Positions 29,221 to 51,639 of a DNA stretch of 64,000 nucleotides are shown in pieces. Positions within the stretch are counted from its first letter, which is position 1. Each line of letters opens with the position of its first letter. The notes under the pieces were generated by a model, which worked only from the letters and a program-made list of their open reading frames with translations, was not told the DNA's origin and made no database searches. The stretch is taken from positions 1 to 64,000 of the forward strand of contig BDSL01000006.1 of NCBI GenBank assembly GCA_003116995.1, in the 5' to 3' direction. The translations under genes were made by a program, and so were the position numbers. This DNA comes from Yamagishiella unicocca (Eukaryota; Chlorophyta; Chlorophyceae; Chlamydomonadales; Volvocaceae).

Positions 29221-29223
29221 AAG
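29221..29223. other. Target-site duplication, left copy (AAG)
   Basis: AAG immediately precedes the first base of the transposon and is repeated immediately after its last base at 46002-46004. The undisturbed satellite reads GGACAAGGCAAACC at this point, so removing the element and one AAG restores a normal monomer. Three-base target-site duplications are the rule for CACTA transposons. Confidence 0.93.
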
Positions 29224-29249
29224 CACTCGGGGAACGGCCGTCTCTTGAG
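29224..29249 (+). repeat. Left terminal inverted repeat
   Basis: This 26-bp terminus starts CACTCGGGGAACGG and ends CTCTTGAG. It pairs with the right terminus at 45977-46001, with a T/G difference at base 4 and a short variable stretch between GGAACGG and CTCTTGAG. The CACT start is diagnostic of CACTA elements. Confidence 0.92.
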
Positions 29250-29517
29250 GAGGCGTCTTATCTCTTGAACATCCCTTGAGGGGCTGTTGAGGGACTCTCT
29301 AGCAGCCCTTTGCCTGCAGCTCAAGAGACCTGGCGGAATGCTAAAGGGGTTCACCCCAGAGACGACTGAAGGGACGCTCAAGAATACCGTAAGGGAACTG
29401 CTAAAGATGGATAAGCTCAAGGGCAGCCCCTAAGAAGGATTAAAGTTCAAGAGGACAGCTCGAGAACAGTTTTAAGACCGGCTCAAGCAAGGACAGCTAA
29501 AGTGCGCCCTTACATGG
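29250..29517 (+). promoter_or_regulatory. Left subterminal CTCAAG/CTTGAG motif region
   Basis: A non-coding stretch with repeated short motifs in both orientations: CCCTTGAGG near 29273, CTCAAGAG near 29321, CTCAAGAA near 29378, CTCAAGGG near 29414, TTCAAGAGG near 29446 and CTCAAGC near 29482. Subterminal arrays of this kind bind the element-encoded TNPA-type protein in plant CACTA transposons. That role is inferred here from position and repetition. Confidence 0.7.
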
Positions 29518-29739
29518 TTGATACAGATTGAAAGGAAGTTGAAAGCAAAGTTGAAAGCAAGATCGTAGGACGGTCTGAATCCTAATGCTTCCTCTCTAAT
29601 TCCTCTCTAATGCTTGTACGTACAACCCGGCCCCAGGGCCGGGTTGTACGGATCCTCCTCCCGCTTCCTCACATTGACATTGTAATGGATAGTATTATCG
29701 AATAGCACAAGGACTCTTATTTTACATAGCTTTGAGATA
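29518..29739 (+). promoter_or_regulatory. Upstream module A of the transposase gene
   Basis: This stretch is a diverged direct copy of 35702-35964, upstream of gene 2. Shared landmarks in the same order are TTGATACAGATTGAAAG, AGTTGAAAGCAAAGTTGAA, a cGTACAACCCGGCCCC palindrome half, and CGCTTCCTCACATT. The palindrome at 29619-29650 is 32 bp and self-complementary except for the central base pair. Because both copies sit directly in front of a gene start, the module probably holds the promoter or 5' UTR. A transcribed hairpin is equally possible. Confidence 0.65.
29619..29650. repeat. GC-rich 32-bp palindrome, copy A
   Basis: Arms CGTACAACCCGGCCC and GGGCCGGGTTGTACG surround a C/A centre that does not pair. 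It is the counterpart of the perfect palindrome at 35804-35835. It could be a dimeric protein-binding site or an RNA hairpin in the 5' leader. Confidence 0.85.
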
Positions 29740-29802
29740 ATGACGGCGCCTGCAAGCCATTTACTGGAGATGTGCCGACCCACAGGAGAAGAAGAAACTT
29801 AG
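29740..29802 (+). pseudogene. 20-codon upstream ORF, relic of a shared 5' coding exon
   Basis: ATG at 29740 opens a 20-codon frame (MTAPASHLLEM...) that stops at 29800-29802, three bases before the transposase ATG at 29806. It aligns at nucleotide level with the beginning of gene 2 (35965 onward, MAEPAASHFLQL...). Relative to gene 2 it lacks two bases near 29783, which shifts the frame into the TAG. It may now act as an upstream ORF that limits transposase translation. Alternatively it is only a leftover of the duplicated 5' module. Confidence 0.6.
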
Positions 29803-29805
29803 CGG

Positions 29806-32800
29806 ATGGACAGATTTGTTGACAAACCTATAGCCCTAGCTTACCTGTGGCCAAGGCTCCTCGAAAGCCGCGTACTCGTCCAGCACAGTGATGGCGTCTT
29901 CACATGCCTCAAGTGCCATGGGCGTTTTGCAAGGATCGCTGCAACGCTCCATGTCCTTGCATGTGAGGACCAACACACCAGCCCGAATGCAACACCAACC
30001 AGCCCCGAGGACATGGCCGCCAACGCAGAGCTTGTGCGAGAAAGTAACCTCAACAGGCGGACGGCACTCTTCAAGGAACAGGTTCAGAGAGCCACAGTGC
30101 TTAGTGGTGGACATGTCACCAGAGGGAAACGCCTTGCACCAACTTCTCAGCGCCGTGCCTCAGCATCTCTCCTCTTTGATCCTGTCTTGGATGGCCCTGC
30201 ACAAGGTCCTGGAGACGCAGCGCTAGCAATGCCTCTCCTCTGTAATCCTGTCTTGGACGGCCCCACACAAAGAATTGGCAGATGTGGAACCACGCGCCGG
30301 AGCGGTGGTAATGACGATGGAAGCGGTGGTGGAAGCAGTGGTGGAAACGGTGGGGGAGGTGGTGAAAACAATGGTGGAAGTGGGGGAAGTGCGGGCCCCC
30401 CTGCAGATGTTGACAAAAGTCCAGCAGGCGGCCCAACAAAGCGGCCTCGCTTGCGAGATGAAGCAGTAGATGATCCCGCACCCGGTAAGGACAGGTCCAG
30501 GGGAATAGTGTGCAACCTGGGCAAACCCTATAATAAAAGTGACAAGCTAGATTGCCATTTGTTCTGGAATGAGTGTGTAGCTTGTCCAGTGTTTGGGTGT
30601 AGTGCCAACTCTTCTCCTGTCCTCACCACTGCCACCAGGACGCCTGCCTTGCTTCACACTGCCGCCTGGAGGCACCACTGGCGCCGCCGAGGCTCCAAGT
30701 CTAGGTGCTGGCGATGACGGGATATACGGGGAAGGCGAGCTGCTGTACACGCTTTCACCAGCACATGACACCAGCAATGAGGACTGGGTGGATGCACAGG
30801 ATCAGGGGCTCGGCGACCCCGTTCCACAGCAAGGTAATAACGACCCCTGGGTCATAGGGGTATATAAAATGGTAGTTGTCGATATAAGTGCTCATCGATG
30901 TAGATGGGGCTAGCCTGGGGTTTTTATGGCCCATTATCCTATCTTATGGGGGTCGTGTTCCACAGCGATAATGTGGCGTGGGCCTTAGCGATATGAGGTG
31001 GATTGGTACTGGTGGCGCGAGCGTATAGGGTGTACTGATGCCCTCACCGCCCCGCCCCCTTAACAACATGCCAGGCCTAGTGCCGGCGTAATGTAATAAT
31101 AAAAAATAATATGGGGGTACCCTGCTGGGGTTTACATGGCAAAATGGGACCTAAGAAGCCACGGACACCTTGAACCTGGCATTTGATAACGTGCTAAAGG
31201 GTGAACTGTTCATTTTTTGTCTCATAACCCACCCCCATAGTGATCGAGGAAGTACCAGAGGAGCTGTGGCATGAGGTTGATGCCGTGGAGGATTGGTTTG
31301 TCCCTCTCACGTGCGATGACGATGAGGAATGGGGCGACCCGATGGACGACTGGGGCGATGAAGAAGGTAATGCCGAACTTTGTACAGATGTAGCTGATAT
31401 TGGAGTAGACAGGGGGGTAGAAATGCACCAGTGTGGCTGTCTCCTTGGTTGCTGTCTCCTTGGTTGCAGCTTGTCCTCACCCTTATGCATCGGCCTTTTA
31501 TTCTCCCTTCCACCACATTAAGTTCAAGCCCCTTCTACATCGCCTTCCCTTTATGCAGACCCATACCTGGTGCCAGAACCAGAGGCTTGTGTGCCACCAG
31601 CCCCTCTCGACGGCATCAGCGGAACCCGGCGGCATGGTGTGAGGACATGCACGTGTGGGTGTGACATCCCATACATCAACCCGCGCTCACCAGAGTGGCT
31701 AAAAGCCCATCTGGGTGACCCACTCCTTCATGGCAGCAGAGTAACGACACGTGAGATGCTCCTCGCTTTACTGGAGATACATGTTCACCACAACGTCCCC
31801 AAGGGGCTAATGGACAACATCCTTGCCCTTTTCGCTGATGCACTGCCTGGCCCACACTTCCTGCCACGGTCGATCCACATGTTGCGAGAAGTAACAGACA
31901 CTCCGCGCCACACCGAGTTTCATGTGCATGTTTGCTCAGCTGCTGGGTGCCCTGGCCACGAGTACAAGGACATGCCCGATAAAACGAAGTGGCAGGAGCG
32001 CGAGGGAGAGTGCTGCCCGAAGTGCCAGACTTCACGGTTCAAAACCCAGACTATTGCGGGTAAGAAACGTGTTTGTGGAGTAGGTTATGTAGGAGGGCAG
32101 GAAAAGCAACGGCCATAGACACGGATAGATGGCGACACAATGTGACAGGCATATGAGGAACACTCACTGCCGCTGTGCATGGCAGGGAAAACGGTTCTGG
32201 AGCCACGGTTTCCCTACTTCTACTTCGGACTAGAGCGCGTCCTTGGCGAGGTCATATTCGGCCGGCGTTCGGTCGTGGAGAAGCGGGCAAAGCATCGCGT
32301 GCCAGGGGCGCCGGACACAGAAGGTGGATCCAGCATGTACCATGGTAAGCTTTTCACCTGAACCGATAGGTGTGGGATCAGGAGATGGCCCTAGTATGTG
32401 ACAGAATGTGTTTACATCGGCCCTACCTTTATCATAACTAGTTTTTTCCCTTGATCCCTTTGCCAGGAGGAGCCATGGCCGAGCTCACAGAACGGACGGC
32501 GGGCCTTGCAGCAAAGCTTCGCGCCACACACTGCAACCTTCTGTTTGATGAAGTACAGCCGTTCGATGGGAAGGGGACTCATTCCACTGGCGTCCTAGCA
32601 GTCCAGGTCCTAGACGTGGAGGCACGCGACAGGGGAAAATCGGAAACGGTGGCCATTGTCGCAGTGATACCGGGGCCTAAAAAGCCAGCGGTGATGGCAC
32701 CCTACCTTTCCCGTGCCGTTGATGAGCTGCTGATGCTCTATGGCAGGGGCATGTATGTCGAGCAAAGCTGGGCTGACAAGACCATGGATGGCGTCACGGC

Positions 32801-35027
32801 GACCCACGTGTCCTTTAAGCTGCACCCCCTACTGGTTGGGGTCCTGGCAGACACCCCCGCGCGCCTGAAAATGTGTGGGCATGCTGGTGTCGGGGCCTAC
32901 ATTGGCTCCTGCCCCTTCTGCATATTCGAGGGCGTTTATGTCCGCCACCCCAGTGGGCATGGTGGCACGATGCGCTACATTGGCTTCTGGCAGCCGGTCG
33001 TTCAGCGGATCAGGTATGTGGTTAGGGGATGCACAGCGGTTAGTTGGCAGGGTGGAGTGTCACGTTTGTGGTTGTAGCCCGGAGCTCTCAGTGAATCTCG
33101 TTTTGGATCTTGCATGTAGGTTTCCCGATGTACCCATGCTTGTCGGGAACAAACAGCTGCGCCTGACGGATGCACTACAACGTTCACGTGGAGCACGTGT
33201 TGCGGCAGCGAAGGCGAAGGCCCAGGCGTCGGGTGTGGCCTCCGATAGGGCCGAGGCCAAGCGGGTTGAGAAGTTTGAGGGCTGCCATGGGGACAATCCC
33301 TTTGCGCGGCTTCCGTACGTCGACCTGCAGAACTTGTTTGCGGTCCCGGTCGCTCATGCCCTCCTGTACGGTGTTGTCAAGCACTTTGTGGAGGATATAT
33401 GCCGTAACCCCACTAGCGACGAGGAGGTGGCCATTACGCTGTCTGCCGCGCAAAAAAAGCTGGTGAAGAGCCGTGCTGCTGACATCATTGCAACAGCGGA
33501 CTTCGGCCGCGGTTATAAGTGTGTCTTGGACTACAGGTGTGGTTTGGTCGGTGTGTGTTGCGGGCAGGGCGATCTTCCATCTCTGCTATGATCGGACGAC
33601 ACTGTTGCAGCACCACTCGTGAAGTTTCCCCCCTGATCCACATTTTGTATCCCTCAGCGGTCTGTACCTCCTCGAGGACTGGCTTCACTTCTGCGAGACC
33701 TTCTCGGCGTACGTGTTCCATGGCGGTGCTTTGCCGCCACAACTGAAGGAGATGTGGGACTTGCTGTGCTCGGCTGTCCATCACTACTTCCGCCCAACGT
33801 ATTTCGAGACACGTGATGCCTTTCTTGAGGCCTCCAAGAAGGCAGCGGCGGACTTGCGCAAGTTCGCTGTACTCGCTGAAAAGCGAGCATTTCCAATGCA
33901 CACGTTCTCCGTCAACCTTCACCTCTGCATATGCCAGTAAGATTGTTATAGCTAGGGTGCGGAGCAGTGTCACAGGAGGGGGAAGGTGGATGTCGATTTG
34001 CGTGTGTTTGCTTACTGGGAATGGTCCGCCCCCCTTTCCACGCAGGCTGCATGAGCAGGCAAAGGCGCGTGGGGCGGTGGCAGGCAGCCTCGAGTTCGTG
34101 GTGGAGCGAGTGATGCAGCGGTTCAAGCGGATTGCTGGGAGGCATGTGTCGCAGAAGGTCGAGGTTCATTTTTCCAATCAAATGCTACTTGGGCAGTCCC
34201 TGGAAAAGATGCGGCGAGAGCACCCAGAGGCCCGCACGCTGGACGCCCTTTTGGGGCGTAACCGCCGCAAGTATGAGCCACCACTCTACGACCAGGTACA
34301 TGATCGCGTACTGCTTGTAGGGTTCGGCCATGTCGCCAGCACCGTCGGATTTGTGAAGGCCGAGGATGTCTCAAGGGCGCTGCGTGTTGCCCTGGAGTGG
34401 GAGGAGGACGGCGACCTCCGAGAGTGGTCGAAGAAAGCGGGTGGTGAGTTTTTGTGGATTGGTAGTTAGTTGAGATTGGCAGAAACTGGGAATCAGGGGG
34501 CGGTTGATATGTTTGCAATTGCTGTCTAGACAAAACGAGCAATCATACAACTAGCACCGATGCATGCCTTTTGCCTGGCTCTGTGCTTACTGACAACCCA
34601 TGTACCCGTCGACTGCACCCCAGGGGGCTACATCCTGGACGAGGGCTTGCTGAGTCGGGCCATGAGTGCGGCAGTGCACCCGGCGGCCCAGGTCTTCTAC
34701 CGTGCTGAGGTGAACGAGGAGACCTTGTACTGTGAGATGTACGGGAGGGCGCGGACGCGGATATCATACTACGTTCTTGTGTTCTATAACACGGGTGGGA
34801 GCCAGGACCAGCCATATGTGGCAAGGATACGGTACTTCCTCAAACTGCCGAGCATGGTGCGAGAGCAGGGTAACGGTGTGTCAACCACACGCCTCCCTGC
34901 GGTTCGTTTGGCAGTCGTGTCAATGCGGAAGGCATTCGTGGAGGACCGGCGGCTGTATGTGACGGATGAGACGAAGAATGGCCGTGCTGATTTCTGGGAC
35001 TTTTATGCTATTCCCCCACGGCCATGA
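29806..35027 (+). CDS. CACTA transposase, TNP2 type (10 exons)
   Basis: Predicted exons: 29806-30484, 30639-30833, 31241-31366, 31559-32059, 32186-32344, 32467-33013, 33120-33536, 33658-33936, 34046-34443, 34624-35027. Every junction is GT-AG and the frame stays open across all ten, giving 1234 aa; most introns are phase 1. An N-terminal C34-x2-C37-x11-H49-x3-C53 finger is followed by a Gly/Asn-rich linker and a basic KRPRLR stretch. Cysteines at about 459, 464, 485, 486 and 489 form a probable zinc cluster. The TNP2 core follows: LLFDEVQPF (D581), IPGPKKP at 621-627, CPFC at 702-705, and the region matching the family's V-D-P-M-H block at about 811-815, which reads V-P-V-A-H here. SLEFVVERVMQRFKR lies near 982-996. 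The enzyme should bind the element ends and cut and rejoin DNA in the nucleus. The Asp replaced by Pro at about 812 questions catalytic activity. The start just after a small upstream ORF is plausible but not certain. Confidence 0.88.
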
Positions 35028-35280
35028 GGGGTCGGCTCGAGAAGCTTGTCTTGGCTGCCCCAGGCCTGGATTCACGCTTCAAGTACTTCGCTACTTACAA
35101 CCACCTGACAGATCGTTGATGGCCCTTCTAGTGCAGGACGGGGAGTGGACGCGACTGGTGGTGGACCCGCACTGCATGGGGTGGTGACGGGGGGAGGACC
35201 GGCAGCTGTATATGATGGACAAAACGAATAATGGTCGGGCTGATTACTGTGACTGATTACTGTGTATTCTCCCAACTGGT
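35028..35280 (+). pseudogene. Transposase 3' flank with a degraded copy of its last exon
   Basis: About 35192-35262 repeats, with substitutions, the end of the transposase gene (34943-35004). The source reads EDRRLYVTDETKNGRADFWD and the copy reads EDRQLYMMDKTNNGRADYCD before a TGA. The copy lies after the transposase stop at 35025-35027 and is most likely an untranslated relic of a local duplication or of a related element's 3' end. Confidence 0.6.
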
Positions 35281-35701
35281 GCTGCAGCGGGGGCTGAGGG
35301 CAGCATTTGCACTTCGTCTAGAGATTGCTTTCACTGTGCACTCGGGTTTGATTATTGAGCAAAGGGCGTCACCCTATACAACGAGATCTTATGCAGCACC
35401 TGGCTATGCGGCGAGGGCTGTTGCGGTGCCTGGTTCTGTGTATGGTGGGGCTGCTGCTGCACCTGGTTATGTGGAGGGGCCTGCTCTAGCGCCTGGTGCT
35501 ACAGCGGGGGCTGAGGGCAGCGTTCACACATCGCCTAGAGATTTTTTTTATTGCGCACTCACGTTTTATTATTGAGCAAAGGGCGGCGCACTCGACACCA
35601 AGATATTAAGCAGCGCCTGGCTCTGTGGCGGGGCTGCTGCAGCACCTGCTGGTTCTGCGGTGGGGCTGCTCTGGCGCCTGCTTCTGTTATTATGTATTAT
35701 T
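35281..35701 (+). repeat. Imperfect two-copy repeat, period about 217 bp
   Basis: GCGGGGGCTGAGGGCAGC at about 35287 recurs at about 35504. Each copy is followed by a CTAGAGATT segment and then TTTATTATTGAGCAAAGGGC-like sequence (about 35350 and 35565). Short CTGCTGCAGCACCTG-type motifs fill the space between. This is non-coding spacer, probably 3' UTR of gene 1 or junction sequence between modules. No convincing gene is seen. Confidence 0.6.
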
Positions 35702-35964
35702 ATTGATACAGATTGAAAGAAAGTTGAAAGCAAAGTTGAATAGTCGGTCTAAATTGAAATGCTCTCACAATTTGGAAAATGCTCGTACAATTTGGAAAAT
35801 GCTCGTACAACCCGGCCCCGGGGCCGGGTTGTACGGAACCTCCCGGCCCCGGGGCCGGGTTGTACGGAACCTCCTCTCGCTTCCTCACATTTAAAGCTAA
35901 AACTGGAATGTGATCATGTATATTAAACTGGACATTGCAAGGATGCTAACATACATTTGAGAGG
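35702..35964 (+). promoter_or_regulatory. Upstream module B of the oxygenase-like gene
   Basis: Direct repeat of module A at 29518-29739, in the same orientation and the same position relative to a gene start. It contains two extra ATTTGGAAAATGCTCGTACA-like units and, after the full palindrome, a second partial palindrome at about 35842-35866. The similarity continues past the ATG of gene 2 into coding sequence, so the duplication included the 5' end of a coding exon. Shared expression control of the two genes is inferred. Confidence 0.65.
35804..35835. repeat. Perfect 32-bp GC-rich palindrome, copy B
   Basis: The 16-base arms CGTACAACCCGGCCCC and GGGGCCGGGTTGTACG are perfect reverse complements with no loop. 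The duplicate in module A differs at the centre. Perfect conservation of arms in a diverged repeat suggests the symmetry is maintained, for example as a dimer binding site. Confidence 0.9.
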
Positions 35965-38900
35965 ATGGCCGAGCCCGCCGCAAGTCATTTTCTGCAGTTG
36001 AGGCGGCTCCATCTGGAGAAAAAGAAAATTAGCGGCACCCTTTACCAGGAGGCATTCCAATTTGCTTGCGAGCTTTCCGACTGCCATCCTGGCAGTACTT
36101 TCCTCGTCAACATTGAAGGAGTTGAATGGGTTGCTAGAGTGCCCATGCGTTGCAGGCCTGAGGACATTGTATCAATGAGATTCTACTCTCAGACATACGG
36201 ACAAAAGGTATCTAGGCCTGTTCACAAACAGTTTTGGCGCGAATGTTTCTGGACTACTCATGTTGCTTTCTCAGGTGGAGAGGTCGCTGACCGAGATGCT
36301 CGGCAGTGATGCAAAGGCTGAGACCGTGAAGAGGTATATTCGCAAGGGGGTGGCTGCGCAGGCAGAGACCTACAAACGACGGCATCTTGGTGGATTTGAC
36401 AGTGAGGCAGCGTTGCTCTACATAGAGCGTGCAATCAGTGTAATGTCCCCCACTAAGGACCAAATCGGGTGGGCCGACAATATGGCATATCACTGGCCCC
36501 TGAGGCCATGGGTCCAGCTCCGTGAGGTGGGATGTTTGCTGCTGACACGGCTGTGCGGCCAGGCATGCTGACTGTCCAATCACTGCAGGCCCTGGTCGCC
36601 ACAAAGAATGCAACGACTCTGCCTGTACCAGCAGGGTCAGGCGCACCCTCAGCACCACCACACCCTCAGCTCGCGCCAATCGTGCAGGCTGCCACCGCCT
36701 CCATGGCAGTGCTCCAGGCACCAGACATGAGCCAAGCCGGCACCAGCGGGCACCCCACCCAGGTAACGTGTGACGGGCGGGCGGGCATGCCACCTCCGCC
36801 ATGTCGCTGATCAGCTCGCGCCAATCGTGCAGGCTGCCACCGCCTCCATGGCAGTGCTCCAGGCACCAGACATGAGCCAAGCCGGCACCAGCGGGCACCC
36901 CACCCAGGTAACGTGTGACGGGCGGGCGGGCATGCCACCTCCGCCATGTCGCTGATCAGCTCGCGCCAATCGTGCAGGCTGCCACCGCCTCCATGGCAGT
37001 GCTCCAGGCACCAGACATGAGCCAAGCCGGCACCAGCGGGCACCCCACCCAGGTAACGTGTGACGGGCGGGCGGGCATGCCACCTCCGCCATGTCGCTGA
37101 TCAGCTCGCGCCAATCGTGCAGGCTGCCACCGCCTCCACGGCAGTGCTCCAGGCACCAGACATGAGCCAAGCCGGCACCAGCGGGCACCCCACCCAGGTA
37201 ACGTGTGACGGGCGGGCGGGCATGCCACCTCCGCCATGTCGCTGATCAGCTCGCGCCAATCGTGCAGGCTGCCACCGCCTCCACGGCAGTGCTCCAGGCA
37301 CCAGACATGAGCCAAGCCGGCACCAGCGGGCACCCCACCCAGGTAACGTGTGACGGGCGGGCGGGCATGCCACCTCCGCCATGTCGCTGATCAGCTCGCG
37401 CCAATCGTGCAGGCTGCCACCGCCTCCATGGCAGTGCTCCAGGCACCAGACATGAGCCAAGCCGGCACCAGCGGGCACCCCACCCAGGTAACGTGTGACG
37501 GGCGGGCGGGCATGCCACCTCCGCCATGTCGCTGATCAGCTCGCGCCAATCGTGCAGGCTGCCACCGCCTCCACGGCGGTGCTCCAGGCACCAGACACGA
37601 GCCAAGCCGGCGCCAGCGGGCACCCCGCCCAGGTAACGTGTGACGGGCGGGCGGGCATGCCACCTCCGCCATGTCGCTGATCAGCTCGCGCCAATCGTGC
37701 AGGCTGCCACCGCCTCCACGGCGGTGCTCCAGGCACCAGACACGAGCCAAGCCGGCGCCAGCGGGCACCCCGCCCAGGTAACGTGTGACGGGCGGGCGGG
37801 CATGCCACCTCCGCCATGTCGCTGATCAGCTCGCGCCAATCGTGCAGGCTGCCACCGCCTCCACGGCGGTGCTCCAGGCACCAGACACGAGCCAAGCCGG
37901 CGCCAGCGGGCACCCCGCCCAGGTAACGTGTGACGGGCGGGCGGGCATGCCACCTCCGCCGTGTCGCTGATCAGCTCGCGCCAATCGTGCAGGCTGCCAC
38001 CGCCTCCACGGCGGTGCTCCAGGCGTCAGATGGTGGTGAGGAACCGGTGCAAGTCGGGCTGAAGCGGCCACATGCCTTCATCTTCGAGGTAAAAGTCAAC
38101 TGGTGGGATGCCTTGCCACTGCAGCGATTTGATACTACTGCCCCACGCACGATGCACAGGGACGAATGGCCACTGTAGGGGACGAGGCAGCGGGTGACAG
38201 TGTAGACACAGAGACAGACGGCGGACAGGAGCGAGGGGGCCACACTAACGAGGTAAGGATGCTGGCATTCATTGTGGGTTAATTGGTTGCATTTGTTGTT
38301 GGTTCGTTCACTGGTTCCTCGAGTGATAATGCACTCCTGCCTCTTGTATTGCGGATGATTACAGAAGCAGCCAGCACACCTCGATCGGCGCGCCCCGTGG
38401 ATACACCAGAGGAAACTTGCGCTACAATGGACGCAGCCCTGTCAAAGCATCCAGACGGAAGGTCTTGAGGCCGAACCACTTACTGGCTGTACAGGTACCA
38501 CCATTGCAGGTGAAGGACGCCAGCTGGCTGCTGTGCGAGCCCGGAGCAGTGCCAGATATGCTGGGGCTAGTAGGTGTGGCCGTGGTGGCGGACGAAAAGC
38601 TGTCGGGACTCGTTCTCAAGGCAGCACCCGCAGCAACCAAGCTTGTGGAGGAGCAGGGGCGTCCTATCTTCGAACACCTGGTGCGCCAACGAGACGGCTC
38701 TGTCAAGTGGACAGATGACGGAAGGCCCATGCTGAGCGGGGGCAAACAACAGCGGCGACAGGCACAGTTGCCACCTAAGCCTGCACCTGCTCTGCTTGCT
38801 GTGAAGGACCGCCTAGATGGCATCGTCAACCAAGTCCTGGACGCCAGGGGACCGGGTGTACCACCGCTGGTGCTGCAGCAGCCTGTAATCATTGGCAACG

Positions 38901-39676
38901 AGCCTGGTCAAACTCCAGTCGGTGCACAGGAGCTGCACACGGACATGAAGCCTGGCACGCGCCACTGTTTCATTGCAGTGGTGCCCATGGAGAAGGACAC
39001 ATATCTGCAAGTGTCACTGAACAGCCACAACACCATCATGTCGTGGCCCCGGCTCACACAGACTGTGGCCTTCAGCTTTGGCGGCAAGGGTGGTGCCACC
39101 AGTGAGGGTGGTGCCGCAAGCAAGGCTGGTGCTGCCAGCAAGGCTGGTGGTAGCAGGGACGGCGCGGGCAGCAAGGGCCATGATACCAACGAGTTGAGAG
39201 CCAGCAGCGAGCTGGACAACAGCAGCGACGATGACTCGACTGTTAGTGAGGGGGCCAGCAAGGGCGGCGCCACCAGCAGTGTCGGTGCCGCTAGCAAGGG
39301 CTGTGCCAACAACAAGTTCGGATCCAGCAGTGCTGGTGGTGCCACCAGCAAGGGTGGCACCACTAGCAAGGGCAGTGAGGACAGTGGTGGTGAGGATACG
39401 GACATCAGTGACGGGGAAGATGTGCCCGATATCCCACATGATGTTGCAACGGAAGCCGCCAGCATGCTCCCACTCCACAAGGTCATCAGGCTACGCATGC
39501 AGCCAGGGCAGGTCGTCTTTCTGCATGGCAATACCGTGCACGCAGGAGACGCTGGCAAGGTCAACAGCTGGACCCCCCGGATGCACTGCTACGTGCAGGA
39601 GAAAAAGGTTAAGGATGCCACCTTCCCAATTGGGGCACTGGGCTCAGAGCTCGCTGCAAGGTTTGGTGTGACATAG
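35965..39676 (+). CDS. Oxygenase-like protein with tandem-repeat exons
   Basis: Predicted exons: 35965-36207, 36275-36526, 36589-36762, eight 93-nt exons starting every 145 bp from 36815 to 37830, then 37975-38088, 38160-38252 and 38375-39676. All introns are GT-AG and phase 0; the product is 973 aa. Residues 1-165 match no family I recognise. Nine complete 31-aa repeats (LAPIVQAATAS...SGHPTQ) cover about 193-471, and a diverging tenth follows. The C-terminal exon shows the 2-oxoglutarate/Fe(II) oxygenase pattern: H728-x-D730 (ELHTDM), H929 (TVHAGDAG) and R942 (RMHCYV). A Gly/Ala/Ser/Lys-rich insertion of about 130 residues lies between the metal ligands. Such enzymes oxidise nucleic acids, proteins or small molecules; the TET/JBP DNA-modifying branch is one candidate and the substrate is unknown. 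The last two introns are less certain than the rest. Confidence 0.7.
36670..38024 (+). repeat. Tandem exon-intron array, 145-bp unit, nine full copies
   Basis: Units start at 36670, 36815, 36960, 37105, 37250, 37395, 37540, 37685 and 37830, with a partial tenth from 37975. Each unit is 93 nt of open coding sequence followed by 52 nt beginning GTAACG and ending CTGATCAG. Ninety-three is divisible by 3 and 52 is not. Splicing every intron keeps a 31-aa repeat in frame, while reading through any intron reaches a TGA within 16 codons. Units at 37540-37830 share substitutions absent from the first six, so duplication occurred in steps. The antisense strand is also open for about 125 codons per window, which is judged incidental. 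Confidence 0.9.
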
Positions 39677-40840
39677 AGAGTGGTGGGGAGGAGGGTGGCA
39701 ACAGCCAGGAACAAGCATGCATGGCCTTGTCACAGTCCTTTAGTGTCTTGGGCTTTTGCGAATCCACGCCGTGTAGTAGCTGCAGATCATGCACAGCATG
39801 CCATTGGTTATACTTTAAAGGACCACGCATGCATACACATATGCTCTCAAACCTTGTGCATAAATGTCCCACAAATGTGGTCGACGAAACAAAGGGACTT
39901 CAATGGCTAACGGACGCATACACACACGGTGGGCCTGAATAAACGGATTACCAATTGAGGTGTGGTAGAAAGGTGGCACAGTCACCGCCAAGGATGTAAA
40001 TCGCATACACTTCCGTGCCCAAGTCCGTAGTGCCCCAAATTGGTAAGGTTGCATCTTTGGAAGCGAATTTAAGCTGGATATCGGCTATCCAATGTTCTGT
40101 GGGCACAGAGGGCATAACTCACAGGATAGAAAGGGGAAACACAGGACATAAAAATACACTAGTGCCATTGCTTGGCCGAATTTTGCTATGCTCTGGTATG
40201 TTGCCATTACCAGGACACATTGCTTATAGCTAAAACACCACTACGGTTGGCTCAGTGGGCAGAGATATATTAGAGCGCACTACGGACAACTGAATACACA
40301 CATCATAAACACGAGTATCACCAGGCATTTATTGGCATTACAACAGCGTCACCATAGCGTCATCATGACAGCACTGGGTGCAGCTGATGCACAACACATG
40401 ATGCAGTCTGAAGCACTGACAGGAAAGTGAGGCTACTTCACCAGTTGCCTTTTGTGACATGTATGTCTGCGTTTCAACATTTGACGTGCGTACCCCCCCG
40501 ACTTTAAAGCATAACAACACCAAACAATCGCTATGGAGGTCCTATGGTTGAGTTGTGTCAAAAACATGGACAAGCGAGGTGACTACGTTGTATCTAGCCG
40601 CCACCAAGCCCCCGCCCCCCTTTCGTACGACCTTAGGGGGTGCTTTTAATTTGTGCTGTCATTTTGGCGTTTTGAATACGCGCGGAACCAGAAGCTAGCG
40701 CCCCTTACATGTCGTACACTTTGTCCATATATCCCTGCTATTCCATCACTTCTTGCCCGACACAACTACTTATTTACTTTACTTCATAAATCATATCATC
40801 TTGCCAACCAACGGTTTCAATCGAACGCAAACTCCAGGGC
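39677..40840 (+). other. Spacer between genes 2 and 3
   Basis: No convincing coding sequence, tandem repeat or mobile-element end is seen in this AT-richer stretch. It should contain the 3' UTR of gene 2 and the promoter of gene 3. A TGTAA, the usual green-algal polyadenylation signal, occurs at about 39994, some 320 bp after the stop. The palindromic module found before genes 1 and 2 is absent. Confidence 0.5.
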
Positions 40841-43280
40841 ATGGCAGAGCTGGGCGACACTGTCGCCGGTTCATTTCATGGCACCTGTGAAAGATGTATA
40901 GTCGAAGTTACGTACGTGCCAGATCCGGTCATCCGGTCGCTAGGCGGTGGAGACGGTGCGCTCGGGTCAATATTTGTGAACCCGACGAGCCTACGCGACG
41001 AACTCGCAGAAACGTATGGAAACTCGCGTGTGCTCAAGTTCAAGGGCGACCTGCAGAGCTCTGGTAAGTTTGACTGTCGAGAGAGGAAGGAGTTGCAGTC
41101 ACTCTGCTCGGATGTTCCAAGCTTACGGTCGCCAAACAGGTTGACTAAGTGCCCCTCGATCAACGTCGTTGATAGACTTTGTCTATAGATAATACTTTAC
41201 GAATGCAGCTGGCTGGCGTGGTGCTCTTTTGTAGGTGCATTCAACAATAGTCTCTGCCCACTCTGCTCTCCGCTTTCCCATGTGCGGGTAGCGTCCATAC
41301 TACTTGTTCAATAGCAAAGGCCCTGAAGACTGCTCCTTGCTTGTCTGTTGCTCAATGTGCAGCCCCTGCGCAGTCCATGGGTGGCCTGTGCTCCGCCCTG
41401 GAAGCCGTCGCGAATGGTGGCAGCACGGATCGTGGCTATGGATCACCGTTCGCTTGGAAGGAGTCGTCACTGTGCTCAATTACGCTTAAAACAATTATAA
41501 AGCTTGAGGTCCAGGTCGTCGACGGCGGCCCTCGTGTGGCTGATCGACTGCTCCCTGCAGTGCGAGCACTTACAGAGATAACGGGTGTGACCATGAACAC
41601 ACCTGCCACCCAGCCAAGCGCTGCAGGGGTCCAGCCCCCTGGACAGGAGCCAAGCGGACAGCCCTCAGCAGGGGCACCTAGCCAGGGCAGCCAGGGCTCT
41701 GAGAAGATGGAACCTGCAGAGCCAAAGGGTGACATCACCTCTAGCATTCTGCTGCTGCGTGGCTCCCAGCCGGGTTCACTATCCCTTGGCCAGATGGCCA
41801 ACGCATGCCTGTTCCTACGCAAGGCCGATAAATGAACTCATCAGCAATGGTGCGTGTACAGGCTGCAGTTGATCCTGGCACGAAAGACATGCCCCCATAT
41901 GGGCACCTGATAGAGTGGTTGTATGCATAACTGATTATTTTGTTTCTGCACTGACCCGTATCCGCACTGTCCCATATCGAACCTGATGTATGCTATTGCA
42001 GGCATGCAGATATATGCACCGCATGGTACCGACGGCCTTGGCACGCTACGCAAGAAGGATTACGATGGATCTCAGCAGACTGGCAAGGGTGCGGCCGACA
42101 AAGACTCCAATCCCCGGACACTGCTATTGGACGAGGATCGTGCACGGGCCGCCTGCTTTGCTTCCTGCTCTGCTGCTGCTGCAGGTAAATAGGAAGGCTG
42201 GAATGCTTGTACACATGCATGGAATGGGCTTGGATTTGGAATTTGCATGCCTTACTTTGTTGCTTATGGTAGCAATATTGACCACATGTTGCGACCTCAG
42301 GGGCAAACTTCGGTGAACAACTATGTGTATGTGTACATTTTGCTGTCAGGGTTGGCTGTCGAGAACAAGCTGACCTCACCGACGTATCCACACATCCTGG
42401 ACTACCACGTAGTGAAGCACCTTCCATTCTTCAAGGGCCCCAAGAAGCCCATCCCTCCGCTTACGACGCCGTCTGATTACTTAACAAAAGCAAAGGAGTA
42501 AGTCCATAATATTCGGTATCTTGTCGGCAATCCTTTGCATTCCTTGGACAAATGTCTGACCTAGAGAGGGGTTATGTCCTTTGCTTGGGCCCTGACTGGG
42601 GTTGGGTGTTGCTTCTAGGAGACAAGTCCGTACTGTGTCCGGTCACCTCGAATAATTTCTTAAGCTACTTTCGTAACCCTGCAGCAAGCCTGCCTCCGAG
42701 TACGGCTCCCGGACAAAGAAGTCAGTGAAGACGACCACCGTGCAAGTGTGGAAGGACGAAGCACGGCTGCAGCTGGATCAGTGGGACAAAGTCGTTCAGC
42801 CCGTGGTTCAGGTGCTGCAGCCAATCGTCCTTAAGCACAAGGAGTACTCAGCGGCGATGGAGGAGGAGATGAGAGATGCGGTGCAGAACCAAGGCCTTGG
42901 GATGATTGTCGTGTGAGTTGCATTAAGGTTAAGGTTTGTACAGTAACTAAATCGTGTATGAACGTATGGTCTGTTAACACTATGTCGTCGTGCTTTCTAC
43001 TGCAGTCGACACATCTGCCTTGGGCTCTTGCCCAAGCGCCTGGGGTTTAAGGAGGCCATTGTCGTCCTGGAGAGCTTCGGAGGTGGGTTTTGCCTCTTGT
43101 TATTAGCTGACTGCTTTGCCTAAAGTAATATAGGTCTCTGCTGTAAGACATAATAATTTGATATGCTCTATGTTTCCATGATGTTGCAGTGAAGGCATCC
43201 CCTAACGCAAAGAGGCGCTATTGTCAAGGTGGGTATGTATATGTAATATAACATTAACCAGTGCATCATGTGAAGGGCAC

Positions 43281-43309
43281 GTCGTACGCGACAAAGTGTC
43301 GCGTACGAC
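43281..43309. repeat. Perfect inverted repeat in an intron of gene 3
   Basis: Arms GTCGTACGCGACA and TGTCGCGTACGAC, 13 bp each, flank the 3-base loop AAG in the intron between 43229 and 43536. It may be a hairpin, a binding site or a remnant of a small inverted-repeat element; no flanking duplication is obvious. Confidence 0.8.
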
Positions 43310-44519
43310 ATTGTTAGTTACTGCGCCTGTGAGCTGAAAACTTCTTCTACGATGAGCTGTTGTCGCCTTCAGCACTAATAATAACCGTATGCAATATACA
43401 TATAATTTATCGATATTGCCAGGCAATAGCAATGCAGCAGCAGTGTTCGTCAATGTTTGACCAGGTGTCCACGCATCCACTCTGCCACTTTTCCAGGCTT
43501 CTAGTGGAGCAATGCATCTTTATAATTATATTTTAGGCAGGCCTGTTAAGTTCTGGGCGTCGCGCTTCAGCATTTTGCCTGGCGAGCTATGGTCAGCGAG
43601 CGAGGAAGGCGACCATCAGGACCTGCCACAGCTGCTCGCTGCTCGCAGTCAGATGGAAGTTAGGGCCACTGGACTTGTGCTGCCAGCATTATAACAAAGC
43701 TCGAGAGCTGCCGGTGAGCATGAAGACCATTGCTGACCTCAAACCCAAAGCTCTGCTTGCGTGGCTTTATTTCCCTAGTTAATGGATAATTTTCATTATC
43801 TGAAATGATTCATTTTCCTGGAATACATGCAGGTGATCGAATCCTGCCAAGACTGGTTGACATCTATCTTAAGAACCTGGCTGTGCTGTATGCTGCCAAC
43901 TTTGCTGAAGCATTTGGCAAATCACGCTGTGATGGTAAGCATGGGAGTGGCGCTTGTTTTCTGCGTGTGCTGCCTGAGAGTGTTGCAACGAACTCCTTGA
44001 TAGAAAACTACTTCAACTTATGGCACCAACCCTCGATGAAACCCACAGCAGGACGTGCGGGACACACAGCTGGGAGAGGACTTTATGGACGTGGCAGGAT
44101 ATGGAGCAGAGAGCATGGAGCAGCGGCTTGCTGGATTTGGTCGTTGAGGAGCTGCTGCAGCGTGACATGGATTGTGAGCATGGATTGTGAGCATCAGCGG
44201 TGTATGGGCCCTGCAGGGCTCAGCTGAGCAAGTAGCGGCATGGTCTGGATCTACAGCAATAGTGATGGGGTAGGCAACACCAGCAATAGCTAGCAGAGGC
44301 GATATGAACCGTGAAGTGAAGGGAACCGCGAGCGAGGTGAAGGGGCAGGTTGTGAGCTCGAAGTAAGCCTGTAGGTCAGTATTACTTGAGGAAGGCAAGG
44401 GGCATGGAGCACAGCAGCTAGCGCCCCATCAGGTGTGTGGCTAGCTAGTTCGGTGCAACATGCCAGTTTGTAGGGAAGAACAGACTGACCCCTGTGGTGG
44501 AACGTACTGGTTCCTGGGG

Positions 44520-44763
44520 TGAAATGTAACACTTTTTGCAGTGACAATGTCTTTAGTGATGTCGGCTTGAGCCTGGACCTTGAGCCCCGCCTTGAGCTGG
44601 GCTCTTCGGTGTAATGCCTTGAGCAGTTTACTTCACCCGGATCTTCAGCGGGGTCTTAAGCTGGGTTCTTGTGCATTCTCTCAACAAGCCCTCTCAAGAT
44701 GTGGCTTGGAAAATTGATTAAGATAAGCTCAAGAGTGCCTCAAGACCGGCCGTTCCCGGAGTG
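44520..44763 (-). mobile_element. Internal CACTA-type terminus, fragment
   Basis: Read on the minus strand from 44763, the sequence begins CACTCCGGGAACGGCC and continues with TCTTGAG and CTCTTGAG motifs, closely matching the left end of the host element. The 240 bp before it on the + strand are dense in CTTGAG/CTCAAG, like a subterminal region. It lies in the last intron of gene 3. No matching opposite end or target duplication was found within that intron, so it is a partial nested element or a duplicated end. Confidence 0.7.
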
Positions 44764-45273
44764 GTACTCATATGTTTATTGGTTTGTGGGACACGGCTGT
44801 AAATTGCATGATCATTTGTGTACTCATGTGTTGATTGGCACTGACTACTTTTGTGATTCCAATCTATTCCCCCAGGCTCCGACGAAGCCCCGAATGCTGG
44901 CACATTATTGGGGGCGAACAAGGCGCTCAGCCTGCAGGAGCGGCTGGAGCTGTACCGGGTTGAGGAGGGCAACGAGGCTGCTGCGGAGGAGGGCACTGGC
45001 AGCAGTGGCGGGAGCGGGAGAAGCAGCCATGGAGCATCGGGGGATGAAGAGGAAATGGGCAGCGATGGGCCCGGGGGCCTTTTTGCCCTGCCGGTGAACA
45101 CAGGTGCTTATGGTGCAGCGCCCGCGAAACAGCCAAGCAGGCGGCTGCGGAATTCCGCACGGGGCGGGGGGGCTGCTCCGGTCGGGAAGCAACGCCATAA
45201 ATTACCGGTGGCAGGGGGGGGCGTGGAGAAAGCCAAGGCTGTGGATAAGCCGTGCAAGAAGGCGCGTAAGTGA

Positions 45274-45500
45274 GCAGGACGACGTAAGCACATACCTAAT
45301 ATGCAGGACGACTTGTAGGATTACGTAAGCTGGCGGTTGACATGGGCAGGGTGACTTGGGCAGGGTGACTTGAACAAACATTCTTGTGCCAAACATGTGG
45401 CAGATACTTGGTACACCAACACTCAAGCAATTGGTAACGTGCTGTAGGCGTGCGCCAGGTATTTACTGATTTCGATGCGATTTTCATGTTTTGTATGCTT
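45274..45500 (+). other. 3' spacer after gene 3
   Basis: No gene is seen. A short GGGCAGGGTGACTTG duplication sits at about 45343-45371. The stretch leads into the 48-bp minisatellite and is probably the 3' UTR of gene 3. Confidence 0.5.
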
Positions 45501-45762
45501 GTTTGCTTGGAGGTTCATTGAGATGCTTCCTTCTTCTTGTCTTTAGCCGCTTGTTTGGAGGTCCGTTGAGATGTCTCCTTCTTCTTGTCTTTAGCCGCTT
45601 GTTTGGAGGTCCGTTGAGATGTCTCCTTCTTCTTGTCTTTAGCCGCTTGTTTGGAGGTCCGTTGAGATGTCTCCTTCTTCTCGCCTTTAGCTACTTCTTT
45701 GGAGGTCCGTTAAGATGTTTCCTTCTTCTCGCCTTTAGCCGCTTCTTTGGGGGTCCGTTGAG
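45501..45762 (+). repeat. 48-bp minisatellite in the right subterminal region
   Basis: About five and a half copies of a 48-bp unit (GCTTGTTTGGAGGTCCGTTG...CTTTAGCC) begin near 45501, 45549, 45597, 45645, 45693 and 45741. Because 48 is a multiple of 3, it gives an open, Leu/Phe-rich frame of 98 codons. That frame is treated as an artefact of the repeat. Confidence 0.9.
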
Positions 45763-45976
45763 TTTAGTCTCTTGTGCGACTCTTTAGCGGTCAGCCTTTA
45801 GCAGGCTGTTAAGGAGACCCTTGAGGAGGCCTTGAGGGCTGTCCTTTTCTGTAACCCTTTAGGTTTGACCCCTCCACACGAAAGAGAGTGCTCAAGGCCG
45901 TGCCTCAAGGGATACTCAAGGGCCCAACTCAAGAGCAAACTCAAGGCAATAAGGTAAGGAGCGCGCTCAAGGGTAG
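45763..45976 (+). promoter_or_regulatory. Right subterminal CTTGAG/CTCAAG motif region
   Basis: Motifs are dense: CCTTGAGGAGG and CCTTGAGGG near 45812-45837, then CTCAAGG, CCTCAAGGG, ACTCAAGGG, ACTCAAGAGC, ACTCAAGG and GCTCAAGGG between 45890 and 45975. In orientation they mirror the left subterminal region, as expected for recognition sites of a CACTA end-binding protein. A TGTAA at 45850 could serve as a polyadenylation signal for gene 3. Confidence 0.7.
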
Positions 45977-46001
45977 CTCAAGAGGTCCCGTTCCCCGCGT
46001 G
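45977..46001 (-). repeat. Right terminal inverted repeat
   Basis: On the minus strand it reads CACGCGGGGAACGGG and then CTCTTGAG. It matches the left terminus except at base 4 and in the short spacer. It is followed directly by the AAG duplication. Confidence 0.92.
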
Positions 46002-46004
46002 AAG
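46002..46004. other. Target-site duplication, right copy (AAG)
   Basis: AAG directly follows the transposon end and continues into GCAAACCTGGGCAG, the normal satellite sequence that should follow GGAC-AAG on the left side. Confidence 0.93.
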
Positions 46005-46397
46005 GCAAACCTGGGCAGTTGGCTCATTGCTCTGTGCTTTGCTAACCACCATGGCCATTTTCAGGTACCTCTTGCGGTCTGATGCCGGCCCCAAATCTTT
46101 CGGTATTGATTATAAATATCATTGAAAGATCAAAGCGCAAGTTTGGTGCCATTTGGTCAAGGCACTGCACCTGCAGGACAAGGCAAACCTGGGCAGTTAG
46201 CCCGTTGCTCTGTGCTTTGCTAACCACCATGGCCATTTCCTGGTACCTCCTGCGGTTCCTTGCCGGCCCCAAATCTTTCGGTATTGATAATAAATATCAT
46301 TGAAAGATCAAAGCGCAAGTTTGGTGCCATTTGGTCAAGGCACTGCACCTGCAGGACAAGGCAAACCTGGGCAGTTAGCTTGTTGCTCTGTGCTTTG

Positions 46398-48060
46398 CTA
46401 ACCACCATGGCCATTTTCAGGTACCTCTTGCGGTCTGATGCCGGCCCCAAATCTTTCGGTATTGATTATAAATATCATTGAAAGATCAAAGCGCAAGTTT
46501 GGTGCCATTTGGTCAATGCACTGCACCTGCAGGACAAGGCAAACCTGGGCAGTTAGCTTGTTGCTCTGTGCTTTGCTAACCACCATGGCCATTTTCAGGT
46601 ACCTCTTGCGGTCTGCTGCCGGCCCCAAATCTTTCGGTATTGATTATAAATATCATTGAAAGATCAAAGCGCAAGTTTGGTGCCATTTGGTCAAGGCACT
46701 GCACCTGCAGGACAAGGCAAACCTGGGCAGTTAGCTTGTTGCTCTGTGCTTAGCTAACCACCATGGCCATTTTCAGGAACCTCCTGCGGTATGTTGCTGG
46801 CCCCAAATCTTTCGGTATTGATTATAAATATCATTGAAAGATCAAAGCGCAAGTTTGGTGCCATTTGGTCAAGGCACTGCACCTGCAGGACAAGGCAAAC
46901 CTGGGCAGTTGGCTCATTGCTCTGTGCTTTGCTAACCACCATGGCCATTTTCAGGTACCTCTTGCGGTCTGCTGCCGGCCCCAAATCTTTCGGTATTGAT
47001 AATAAATATCATTGAAAGATCAAAGCGCAAGTTTGGTGCCATTTGGTCAATGCACTGCACCTGCAGGACAAGGCAAACCTGGGCAGTTAGCTTGTTGCTC
47101 TGTGCTTTGCTAACCACCATGGCCATTTTCAGGTACCTCTTGCGGTCTGCTGCCGGCCCCAAATCTTTCGGTATTGATAATAAATATCATTGAAAGATCA
47201 AAGCGCAAGTTTGGTGCCATTTGGTCAAGGCACTGCACCTGCAGGACAAGGCAAACCTGGGCAGTTAGCTTGTTGCTCTGTGCTTTGCTAACCACCATGG
47301 CCATTTTCAGGTACCTCTTGCGGTCTGATGCCGGCCCCAAATCTTTCGGTATTGATTATAAATATCATTGAAAGATCAAAGCGCAAGTTTGGTGCCATTT
47401 GGTCAATGCACTGCACCTGCAGGACAAGGCAAACCTGGGCAGTTAGCTTGTTGCTCTGTGCTTTGCTAACCACCATGGCCATTTTCAGGTACCTCTTGCG
47501 GTCTGCTGCCGGCCCCAAATCTTTCGGTATTGATTATAAATATCATTGAAAGATCAAAGCGCAAGTTTGGTGCCATTTGGTCAAGGCACTGCACCTGCAG
47601 GACAAGGCAAACCTGGGCAGTTAGCTTGTTGCTCTGTGCTTAGCTAACCACCATGGCCATTTTCAGGAACCTCCTGCGGTATGTTGCTGGCCCCAAATCT
47701 TTCGGTATTGATTATAAATATCATTGAAAGATCAAAGCGCAAGTTTGGTGCCATTTGGTCAAGGCACTGCACCTGCAGGACAAGGCAAACCTGGGCAGTT
47801 GGCTCATTGCTCTGTGCTTTGCTAACCACCATGGCCATTTTCAGGTACCTCTTGCGGTCTGCTGCCGGCCCCAAATCTTTCGGTATTGATAATAAATATC
47901 ATTGAAAGATCAAAGCGCAAGTTTGGTGCCATTTGGTCAAGGCACTGCACCTGCAGGACAAGGCAAACCTGGGCAGTTAGCTTGTTGCTCTGTGCTTTGC
48001 TAACCACCATGGCCATTTTCAGGTACCTCTTGCGGTCTGCTGCCGGCCCCAAATCTTTCG
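46398..48060 (+). repeat. 890-bp (5-monomer) higher-order repeat
   Basis: Diagnostic variants recur 890 bp apart, including the GGTCAATGCACTGC variant (46512 and 47402) and CAGGAACCTCCTGCGGTATG (about 46776 and 47666). This is a duplicated block of five 178-bp monomers. Confidence 0.8.
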
Positions 48061-48711
48061 GTATTGATTATAAATATCATTGGAAGATCAAAGCGCAAGT
48101 TTGGTGCCATTTGGTCAAGGCACTGCACCTGCAGGACAAGGCAAACCTGGGCAGTTGGCTCATTGCTCTGTGCTTTGCTAACCACCATGGCCATTTCCTG
48201 GTACCTCTTGCGGTCTGTTGCTGGCCCCAAATCTTTCGGTATTGATTATAAATATCATTGAAAGATCAAAGCGCAAGTTTGGTGCCATTTGGTCAAGGCA
48301 CTGCACCTGCAGGACAAGGCAAACCTGGGAAGTTAGCTTGTTGCTCTGTGCTTAGCTAACCACCATGGCCATTTTCAGGAACCTCCTGCGGTATGTTGCT
48401 GGCCCCAAATCTTTCGGTATTGATTATAAATATCATTGAAAGATCAAAGCGCAAGTTTGGTGCCATTTGGTCAAGGCACTGCACCTGCAGGACAAGGCAA
48501 ACCTGGGCAGTTGGCTCATTGCTCTGTGCTTTGCTAACCACCATGGCCATTTTCAGGTACCTCTTGCGGTCTGCTGCCGGCCCCAAATCTTTCGGTATTG
48601 ATAATAAATATCATTGAAAGATCAAAGCGCAAGTTTGGTGCCATTTGGTCAAGGCACTGCACCTGCAGGACAAGGCAAACCTGGGCAGTTGGCTCATTGC
48701 TCTGTGCTTTG

Positions 48712-49780
48712 CTAACCACCATGGCCATTTCCTGGTACCTCTTGCGGTCTGTTGCTGGCCCCAAATCTTTCGGTATTGATTATAAATATCATTGAAAGAA
48801 CAAAGCGCAAGTTTGGTGCCATTTGGTCAAGGCACTGCACCTGTAGGACAAGGCAAACCTGGGCAGTTAGCTTGTTGCTCTGTGCTTTGCTAACCACCAT
48901 GGCCATTTTCAGGTACCTCTTGCGGTCTGATGCCGGCCCCAAATCTTTCGGTATTGATTATAAATATCATTGAAAGATCAAAGCGCAAGTTTGGTGCCAT
49001 TTGGCCAAGGCACTGCACCTGCAGGACAAGGCAAACCTGGGCAGTTGGCTCATTGCTCTGTGCTTTGCTAACCACCATGGCCATTTCCTGGTACCTCTTG
49101 CGGTCTGTTGCTGGCCCCAAATCTTTCGGTATTGATTATAAATATCATTGAAAGAACAAAGCGCAAGTTTGGTGCCATTTGGTCAAGGCACTGCACCTGT
49201 AGGACAAGGCAAACCTGGGCAGTTAGCTTGTTGCTCTGTGCTTTGCTAACCACCATGGCCATTTTCAGGTACCTCTTGCGGTCTGATGCCGGCCCCAAAT
49301 CTTTCGGTATTGATTATAAATATCATTGGAAGATCAAAGCGCAAGTTTGGTGCCATTTGGTCAAGGCACTGCACCTGCAGGACAAGGCAAACCTGGGCAG
49401 TTGGCTCATTGCTCTGTGCTTTGCTAACCACCATGGCCATTTCCTGGTACCTCTTGCGGTCTGTTGCTGGCCCCAAATCTTTCGGTATTGATTATAAATA
49501 TCATTGAAAGAACAAAGCGCAAGTTTGGTGCCATTTGGTCAAGGCACTGCACCTGTAGGACAAGGCAAACCTGGGCAGTTAGCTTGTTGCTCTGTGCTTT
49601 GCTAACCACCATGGCCATTTTCAGGTACCTCTTGCGGTCTGATGCCGGCCCCAAATCTTTCGGTATTGATTATAAATATCATTGAAAGATCAAAGCGCAA
49701 GTTTGGTGCCATTTGGCCAAGGCACTGCACCTGCAGGACAAGGCAAACCTGGGCAGTTAGCCCGTTGCTCTGTGCTTAGC
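48712..49780 (+). repeat. 356-bp satellite dimer repeated three times
   Basis: The GAAAGAACAAAGCGC variant occurs at about 48794, 49150 and 49506, with a GTCTGATGCCGG variant in the alternate monomer, giving an exact 356-bp (two-monomer) period over three turns. Confidence 0.85.
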
Positions 49781-50134
49781 TAACCACCATGGCCATTTCC
49801 TGGTACCTCCTGCGGTTCGTTGTGGCCCCAAATCTTTCGGTATTGATTATAAATATCATTGAAAGATCAAAGCGCAAGTTTGGTGCCATTTGGTCAATGC
49901 ACTGCACCTGCAGGACAAGGCAAACCTGGGCAGTTAGCTTGTTGCTCTGTGCTTTGCTAACCACCATGGCCATTTTCAGGTACCTCTTGCGGTCTGCTGC
50001 CGGCCCCAAATCTTTCGGTATTGATTATAAATATCATTGAAAGATCAAAGCGCAAGTTTGGTGCCATTTGGTCAAGGCACTGCACCTGCAGGACAAAGCA
50101 AACCTGGGCAGTTAGCCCGTTGCTCTGTGCTTTG

Positions 50135-51100: not shown

Positions 51101-51639
51101 ATCATTGAAAGATCAAAGCGCAAGTTTGGTGCCATTTGGTCAAGGCACTGCACCTGCAGGACAAGGCAAACCTGGGCAGTTAGCTTGTTGCTCTGTGCTT
51201 AGCTAACCACCATGGCCATTTTCAGGAACCTCCTGCGGTATGTTGCTGGCCCCAAATCTTTCGGTATTGATAATAAATATCATTGAAAGATCAAAGCGCA
51301 AGTTTGGTGCCATTTGGTCAAGGCACTGCACCTGCAGGACAAAGCAAACCTGGGCAGTTAGCTCATTGCTCTGTGCTTTGCTAACCACCATGGCCATTTT
51401 CAGGTACCTCTTGCGGTCTGCTGCCGGCCCCAAATCTTTCGGTATTGATTATAAATATCATTGAAAGATCAAAGCGCAAGTTTGGTGCCATTTGGTCAAG
51501 GCACTGCACCTGCAGGACAAGGCAAACCTGGGCAGTTAGCTCATTGCTCTGTGCTTAGCTAACCACCATGGCCATTTTCAGGTACCTCCTGCGGTTTGTT
51601 GCTGGCCCCAAATCTTTCGGTATTGATTATAAATATCAT

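Follow-up and report, generated by a model that had tools for sequence, protein, structure and literature searches.

The window, that is, the whole stretch of 64,000 nucleotides that was analysed, contains a transposon embedded in satellite DNA (Table 1). The element has inverted termini that begin with CAC and finish with GTG, and is flanked by a 3-bp target-site duplication, AAG (29221-29223 and 46002-46004), inside a 178-bp satellite; it is a CACTA-like transposon. Arrays of the satellite, with variants and higher-order periods of ~355 bp, flank the transposon on both sides (4-29223 and 46002-62491) and are possibly centromeric. In gene 1 of the element, one exon (32442-33077) matches the Pfam family Transposase_21 with an E-value of 2.9e-6 and 27.1 bits, under the curated cut-off of 28.6, and the translation contains the sequence CPFC; DDE residues together with C(2)C and H(3-4)H motifs characterise such transposases in PMC12730594. 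A protein search with the spliced transposase returned nothing at E <= 1e-3 among the ~8,000 scored candidates that share most words with it. The array described below had been assigned, in the original prediction made from the sequence, to a gene of a transposon, and the termini and the target duplication bear this out, with the sub-threshold Transposase_21 match pointing the same way.

Each of the two genes is preceded by a GC-rich inverted motif, GTACAACCCGGCCCCGGGGCCGGGTTGTAC, together with the sequence 3' of it (29614-29675 and 35804-35891), and related stretches are present at ~20 other places in the genome; the motif is perhaps a shared promoter or hairpin. Downstream of gene 2, exon-like open frames extend over 40842-45273 and perhaps belong to one or two more genes of the element; the open frame at 41251-41835, scanned against Pfam, matched no family.

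Table 1. Features of the transposon and of its two modelled genes in the window.
Feature	Position	Strand	Basis or remark
CACTA-like transposon, 16,778 bp	29224..46001	+	ends CACTCGGGGAACGG / CACGCGGGGAACGG
Gene 1, predicted transposase, 10 predicted exons, 1234 aa	29806..35027	+	in-frame GT-AG model
Gene 2, exon 1, N-terminal region	35965..36207	+	reading frame
Gene 2, exon 2, N-terminal region	36275..36526	+	reading frame
Gene 2, exon 3, ends in array module 1 (36670-36762)	36589..36762	+	reading frame
Minisatellite	36666..38024	+	nine 145-bp units and a partial tenth
Array modules, 93 nt	36670+145n (n = 0 to 8)		
Predicted array introns, 52 nt	36763+145n (n = 0 to 8)		
Exon with the partial tenth module and the right flank	37975..38088	+	reading frame
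Proposed further exon, phase 0	38160..38252	+	open frame between AG and GT; homology gives no support
Predicted dioxygenase exon	38365..39676	+	in the window copy, first part in another frame than the dioxygenase

The predicted product of gene 2 is a 2-oxoglutarate-type dioxygenase. Residues H145, D147, H255 and R268 (H-x-D ... H ... R), which are probably the 2-oxoglutarate/Fe(II) dioxygenase residues, are invariant in all six aligned dioxygenase sequences. The fold is a double-stranded beta-helix, and the fold matches listed are exclusively PhyH-like and related enzymes, for example, OkaE, AsqJ, and SnoN. The dioxygenase exon of the window found no protein at E <= 1e-3 (~8,000 candidates sharing most words scored); a 299-aa relative encoded on contig C810 matched three, the best being Volvox carteri VOLCADRAFT_106950 at 51% (57% in the six-sequence alignment). 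Dioxygenase matches that lack an array (94 of 413 candidates scored) belong in part to an 8.16-kb tandem repeat that carries a truncated copy; a truncated dioxygenase frame lies at C474:1400-9700, in a head-to-tail repeat of ~8.16 kb that is found on several contigs.

Upstream of the dioxygenase exon, TRF detects a tandem array of 1,359 bp with a period of 145, 9.4 copies and 99% matches, and CTCGCGCCAATCG starts ten times at a spacing of exactly 145 bp, from 36670 to 37975. The tandem repetition itself is far beyond chance. These results uphold the originally proposed nine 145-bp units, each read as an exon of 93 nt followed by a GT-AG intron of 52 nt, with coordinates (36670..38024) that were off by no more than four bases. 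All nine full units split into 93 nt of open frame (31 aa) and 52 nt that start with GT and end with AG, and in-frame read-through from the exon into the 52-nt segment is halted by a stop after 15 codons, as had been foreseen for an unspliced unit. Joined to each other, the 93-nt pieces encode LAPIVQAATAS(M/T)AVLQAPD(M/T)SQAG(T/A)SGHP(T/A)Q. The first module is the tail of a longer exon and the partial tenth is the head of another, such that the array totals ten modules and nine predicted introns, with the flanking exons and the modules all in one frame. The left edge of the array is TCAG|CTCGCG and the right edge falls within an exon; the exon-intron border of the unit is AG|GT. The 52-nt intron is the shortest in the gene models (the others are 62 to 407 nt long), its donor is GTAACG, and a pyrimidine tract is not clear by eye; no exact match to a 29-base piece of this intron was found in viral_contigs.

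The units differ at 5 of 93 exon and 1 of 52 intron positions. Four substitutions (unit positions 39, 59, 73, and 88) are common to units 7-9, that is, from 37540 on, and the partial tenth unit carries the substitution at position 39, the sole one of the four within its reach. At position 35, units 1, 2, 3, and 6 have T and the rest have C, so that the array did not grow purely end to end; of the stepwise growth envisaged originally, the shared substitutions stand, and the mosaic at position 35 qualifies it.

Judged from its own sequence, the exon-intron division of the 145-bp unit is a weak case: 294 of 300 dinucleotide shuffles of the unit can be divided in some way into a GT-AG intron and an exon free of stops with a length divisible by three, and 469 of 1000 shuffles can still be so divided with both flanking frames fixed. 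Because shuffled units so often allow the same reading, the introns in the window are unproven by their own sequence, and the case, which the original prediction had built on the sequence of the array, must therefore rest on relatives.

Three further arrays, distinct in sequence from that in the window and from each other, are located in the same genome upstream of the same dioxygenase domain, with units of 259, 220, and 224 bp that divide into exon and intron as 105+154, 72+148, and 87+137, respectively. Across the four arrays, every exon is a multiple of three (93, 105, 72, and 87 nt), and no unit length is. The 259-bp array (10.8 copies) is found on contig C31 and in close copies of this locus. 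C810 contains two arrays in series, of 224 bp (7 exons) and 220 bp (12 exons), and C258 a 224-bp array with 8 exons followed by an intronless coding repeat of 39 bp in 35.9 copies. This purely coding minisatellite, AGTAADTDAAAAS, shares its linker with the 224-bp exon-intron array, with 30.9 copies in C482. The last 220-bp module reads straight through to the dioxygenase without a break in frame, and for the arrays of 259 and 224 bp the link to the dioxygenase is one of position upstream of it. The N-terminal regions encoded in the window and in the C31 gene have weak similarity, at 20% with a single-comparison E-value of 9e-4.

The peptide encoded by the 72-nt exon is similar to that of a neighbouring single exon (0 of 1000 shuffles as good), and therefore older exon duplications seem to be present in the linker, too. 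Both repeat edges of the 224-bp array fall within introns, and its single-unit copies contain the same exon flanked by the same introns. One type of 259-bp unit lacks 6 nt, a loss that is in frame. Variable sites number 9 of 87 in the exon vs 3 of 137 in the intron for the 224-bp array in C810, 5 of 72 vs 5 of 148 for the 220-bp array, and 4 of 105 vs 13 of 154 for the 259-bp array in C31. The exon thus has the higher density of variable sites in the window, 220-bp, and 224-bp arrays, but not in the 259-bp array.

The peptides of the window and 259-bp modules have AVLQAP and PTQLA in common, in the same order. A shared 6-mer with a separate 5-mer arose in 2 of 200,000 peptide shuffles, in a test devised after the match had been noticed. 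Nine of the 11 codons of these two peptides differ, all silently, and nine of the ten base changes are at third positions. PTQ|LA straddles the predicted splice junction in the window and is contiguous within the 259-bp exon. When the window and 259-bp module peptides were aligned by a plain local alignment, the score was unremarkable, being equalled in over 20 of 1000 shuffles. Purifying selection on the exons had been expected and was not clearly seen: within-array changes are near neutral, with 9 of 23 synonymous vs an expected fraction of ~0.26-0.30. By these sequence comparisons, the modules look like a loosely constrained linker. The three analogous arrays and the shared module peptides support the equation of one unit with an exon plus an intron, and removal of the 52-nt introns by splicing appears likely from these comparisons.

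We consider it probable that the array represents serial cassette exons, situated in the linker of a dioxygenase gene that a CACTA-like transposon carries, where gain or loss of a whole unit changes an intron and a protein module together. An unlikely alternative is that the array is transcribed and is excised whole, as a single large intron reaching from its first donor to its last acceptor, or is variably skipped, in which case few modules would enter the protein and the repeat would mostly be a passive intronic minisatellite. All donors and acceptors of the array are alike and every combination of them keeps the frame, so that skipping carries no frame cost, but the module peptides common to two families, with their silent codon changes, speak for translation; furthermore, in EBV IR1, albeit a different system, skipping is rare according to the available part of the report (PMC12451641).

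Contig C365 contains a second insertion of the element, with the right end adjoining another position of the 178-bp satellite. It is 99.93% identical to the window copy over ~11.27 kb, with five difference events, none of which is in the array. One is a 4-nt difference at 38381-38384, within the dioxygenase exon, which under the gene model takes the dioxygenase of the window copy out of frame, that of C365 being in frame; thus, the window-copy dioxygenase may be out of frame downstream of the array, and it is possible that the 4-nt difference is an assembly error. A segment of ~1.5 kb (43240-44763), with GTA on both sides, is present in the window copy and missing in C365. Its right end resembles a CACTA terminus (CACTCCGGGAACGGCC on the other strand), and because its left end lacks the initial CAC, the segment may be a truncated nested element.

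The second insertion bears on the possibility that the array is an untranscribed or decayed repeat in a dead element, with the exon reading arising by chance. The frequency of GT-AG divisions in shuffled units, the location of the element in satellite DNA and the frame of the window copy downstream of the array, out of step under the gene model, all speak for it. Nevertheless, independent insertions at two satellite positions carry an identical array, the dioxygenase frames of the relatives are open, with invariant H, D, H, and R, and analogous arrays occur in three further cases, which together make this explanation very unlikely.

The predicted change of unit number by whole units holds for two of the sister arrays. 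For the 224-bp array, 262 contigs were candidates and the 40 that were scored were all used; by the spacing of its unique flanks, it has 1 unit in 7 of these, 2 in 4, 3 in 3, 7 in 19, and 8 in 7. In the 33 contigs with more than one unit, the spacing is always within 5 bases of a multiple of 224, and in 24 it is exact. The 220-bp array has 10 units in 10, 12 in 6, and 15 in 4 of 20 contigs, with departures of at most 26 bases; here, 22 right-flank matches were listed (40 of 194 candidates scored), 20 of which also had the left flank (40 of 99 scored), and C958 and C490 were left out. All these counts rest on the assembly, where tandem repeats can be misjudged, and some of the contigs may be assembly duplicates of one place. 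In the 259-bp family, unit number is constant in nine of nine complete copies, with nearly the same order of unit types (12 loci were examined, of which C557, C96, and C17 were incomplete in the stretch fetched and were not counted). Variation was expected in the window-type array as well, and there was none between the two insertions compared: unit number is identical in the window and C365.

Among the contigs of this assembly, C155 has no A on one strand in 6,918 bases from five places (one at ~112917) and C228 has a single A on one strand among 5,155 bases sampled at three places. C155 is spanned along its entire 162,270 bp by one open frame, of 54,089 codons. Both matches to the Pfam family RuBisCO_large fall in such adenine-free DNA, which is either a real oddity or an assembly artefact. 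The chlorophyll a/b-binding family of Pfam, by contrast, gives 59 matches, LHCII-like sequence among them, and these together with the Volvox match indicate a green alga. A literature search on adenine-free contigs found nothing.

Intron gain by tandem duplication, as originally suggested, finds no support in that form: an existing exon-intron unit is multiplied, which is not intron creation. The model in which new introns are created by tandem duplication of an AGGT-bearing exon segment (PMC4974935, as presented in the accessible portion of the text) fits the AG|GT border and the visible duplication but predicts an intron about one unit long. Here, by contrast, the unit is split between an exon and an intron, and single-unit 224-bp copies already have both introns; we find the model highly improbable.

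Under the cassette-exon explanation, one unit would equal one 31-codon exon and one short spliceosomal intron, and duplication or loss of whole units, whether by unequal exchange, slippage or gene conversion, would add or remove an intron and a module together. With an exon length divisible by three and the intron removed, the frame would be kept at any unit number and with any skipping pattern; an unspliced 145-bp unit (145 = 3n+1) would shift the frame, and the exon by itself would not. The 224-bp array would have formed by repeated duplication of an exon via its flanking introns. The protein would consist of an N-terminal region, a repetitive low-complexity linker, the length of which might have a role, and the dioxygenase, and transposition would move the set of introns to new places. 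The broader proposition, that a transposon-borne dioxygenase family repeatedly generates exon-intron minisatellites at one linker and that transposition spreads sets of up to ~20 introns, we put at roughly even chances.

If these proposals are valid, this is a recurrent and currently observable multiplication of introns, in which introns and protein modules arise together in many alleles, and phase-0 cassette exons make any unit number and any skipping pattern safe for the frame. Within one gene family, a single genome offers copies with 1, 2, 3, 7, and 8 units of one repeat and copies with 10, 12, or 15 units of a second, besides the other two arrays. This natural comparison of copies makes the splicing of near-identical serial introns, exon skipping, the homogenisation of introns vs exons and the effect of linker length testable.

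Several known systems resemble parts of this picture. Introners are mobile elements that insert into genes as introns and are the source of many introns; the likeness lies in mobile elements as the intron source, and the difference is that here introns multiply within the transposon's own gene. The homogenised introns of spider flagelliform silk are a parallel. In EBV IR1, the unit is ~3 kb. As far as the available part of the report goes, this viral repeat is similar in that its unit includes complete exons and introns, the number of modules in EBNA-LP tracking the number of repeats through the W exons, most of which are included in the reads (PMC12451641); it differs in having two exons per unit and belonging to a viral genome, compared to one exon per unit in a transposon. 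The LPA kringle IV-2 VNTR, in the portion of the source at hand, is likewise a coding tandem repeat with exons and introns inside a unit, here of 5.6 kb with two exons and 1 to ~40 units per allele (PMC11462820), but it resides in a human host gene, whereas the present units have one exon and 145-259 bp and form four arrays in one gene family in a transposon. In Arabidopsis TOUCH3, according to the excerpted text, a pre-existing intron was multiplied by internal tandem duplication, copied along with flanking exon sequence (PMC4974935); that gene underwent two duplications, in contrast to the long homogenised arrays and many alleles seen here. Fungal EnSpm/CACTA and other transposons carry a TET/JBP dioxygenase (PMC12730594), and the algal element shares with these, on the evidence of the partial source, a 2-oxoglutarate-type dioxygenase cargo, CAC...GTG ends and a 3-bp target duplication; the algal fold, however, matches PhyH-like enzymes, and the accessible part of that report does not mention intron arrays for the fungal elements. 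The comparison suggests that a CACTA-like element of an alga may carry a dioxygenase as cargo, much as the fungal elements carry TET/JBP. As far as our searches of the literature reach, exon-intron arrays in a transposon were not found to have been described. Coding repeats with exons and introns inside the unit are known already from LPA KIV-2 and EBV IR1; what is new, to the extent that the literature search reaches, is that the unit is small, that it sits in a transposon and that such arrays recur at one site.
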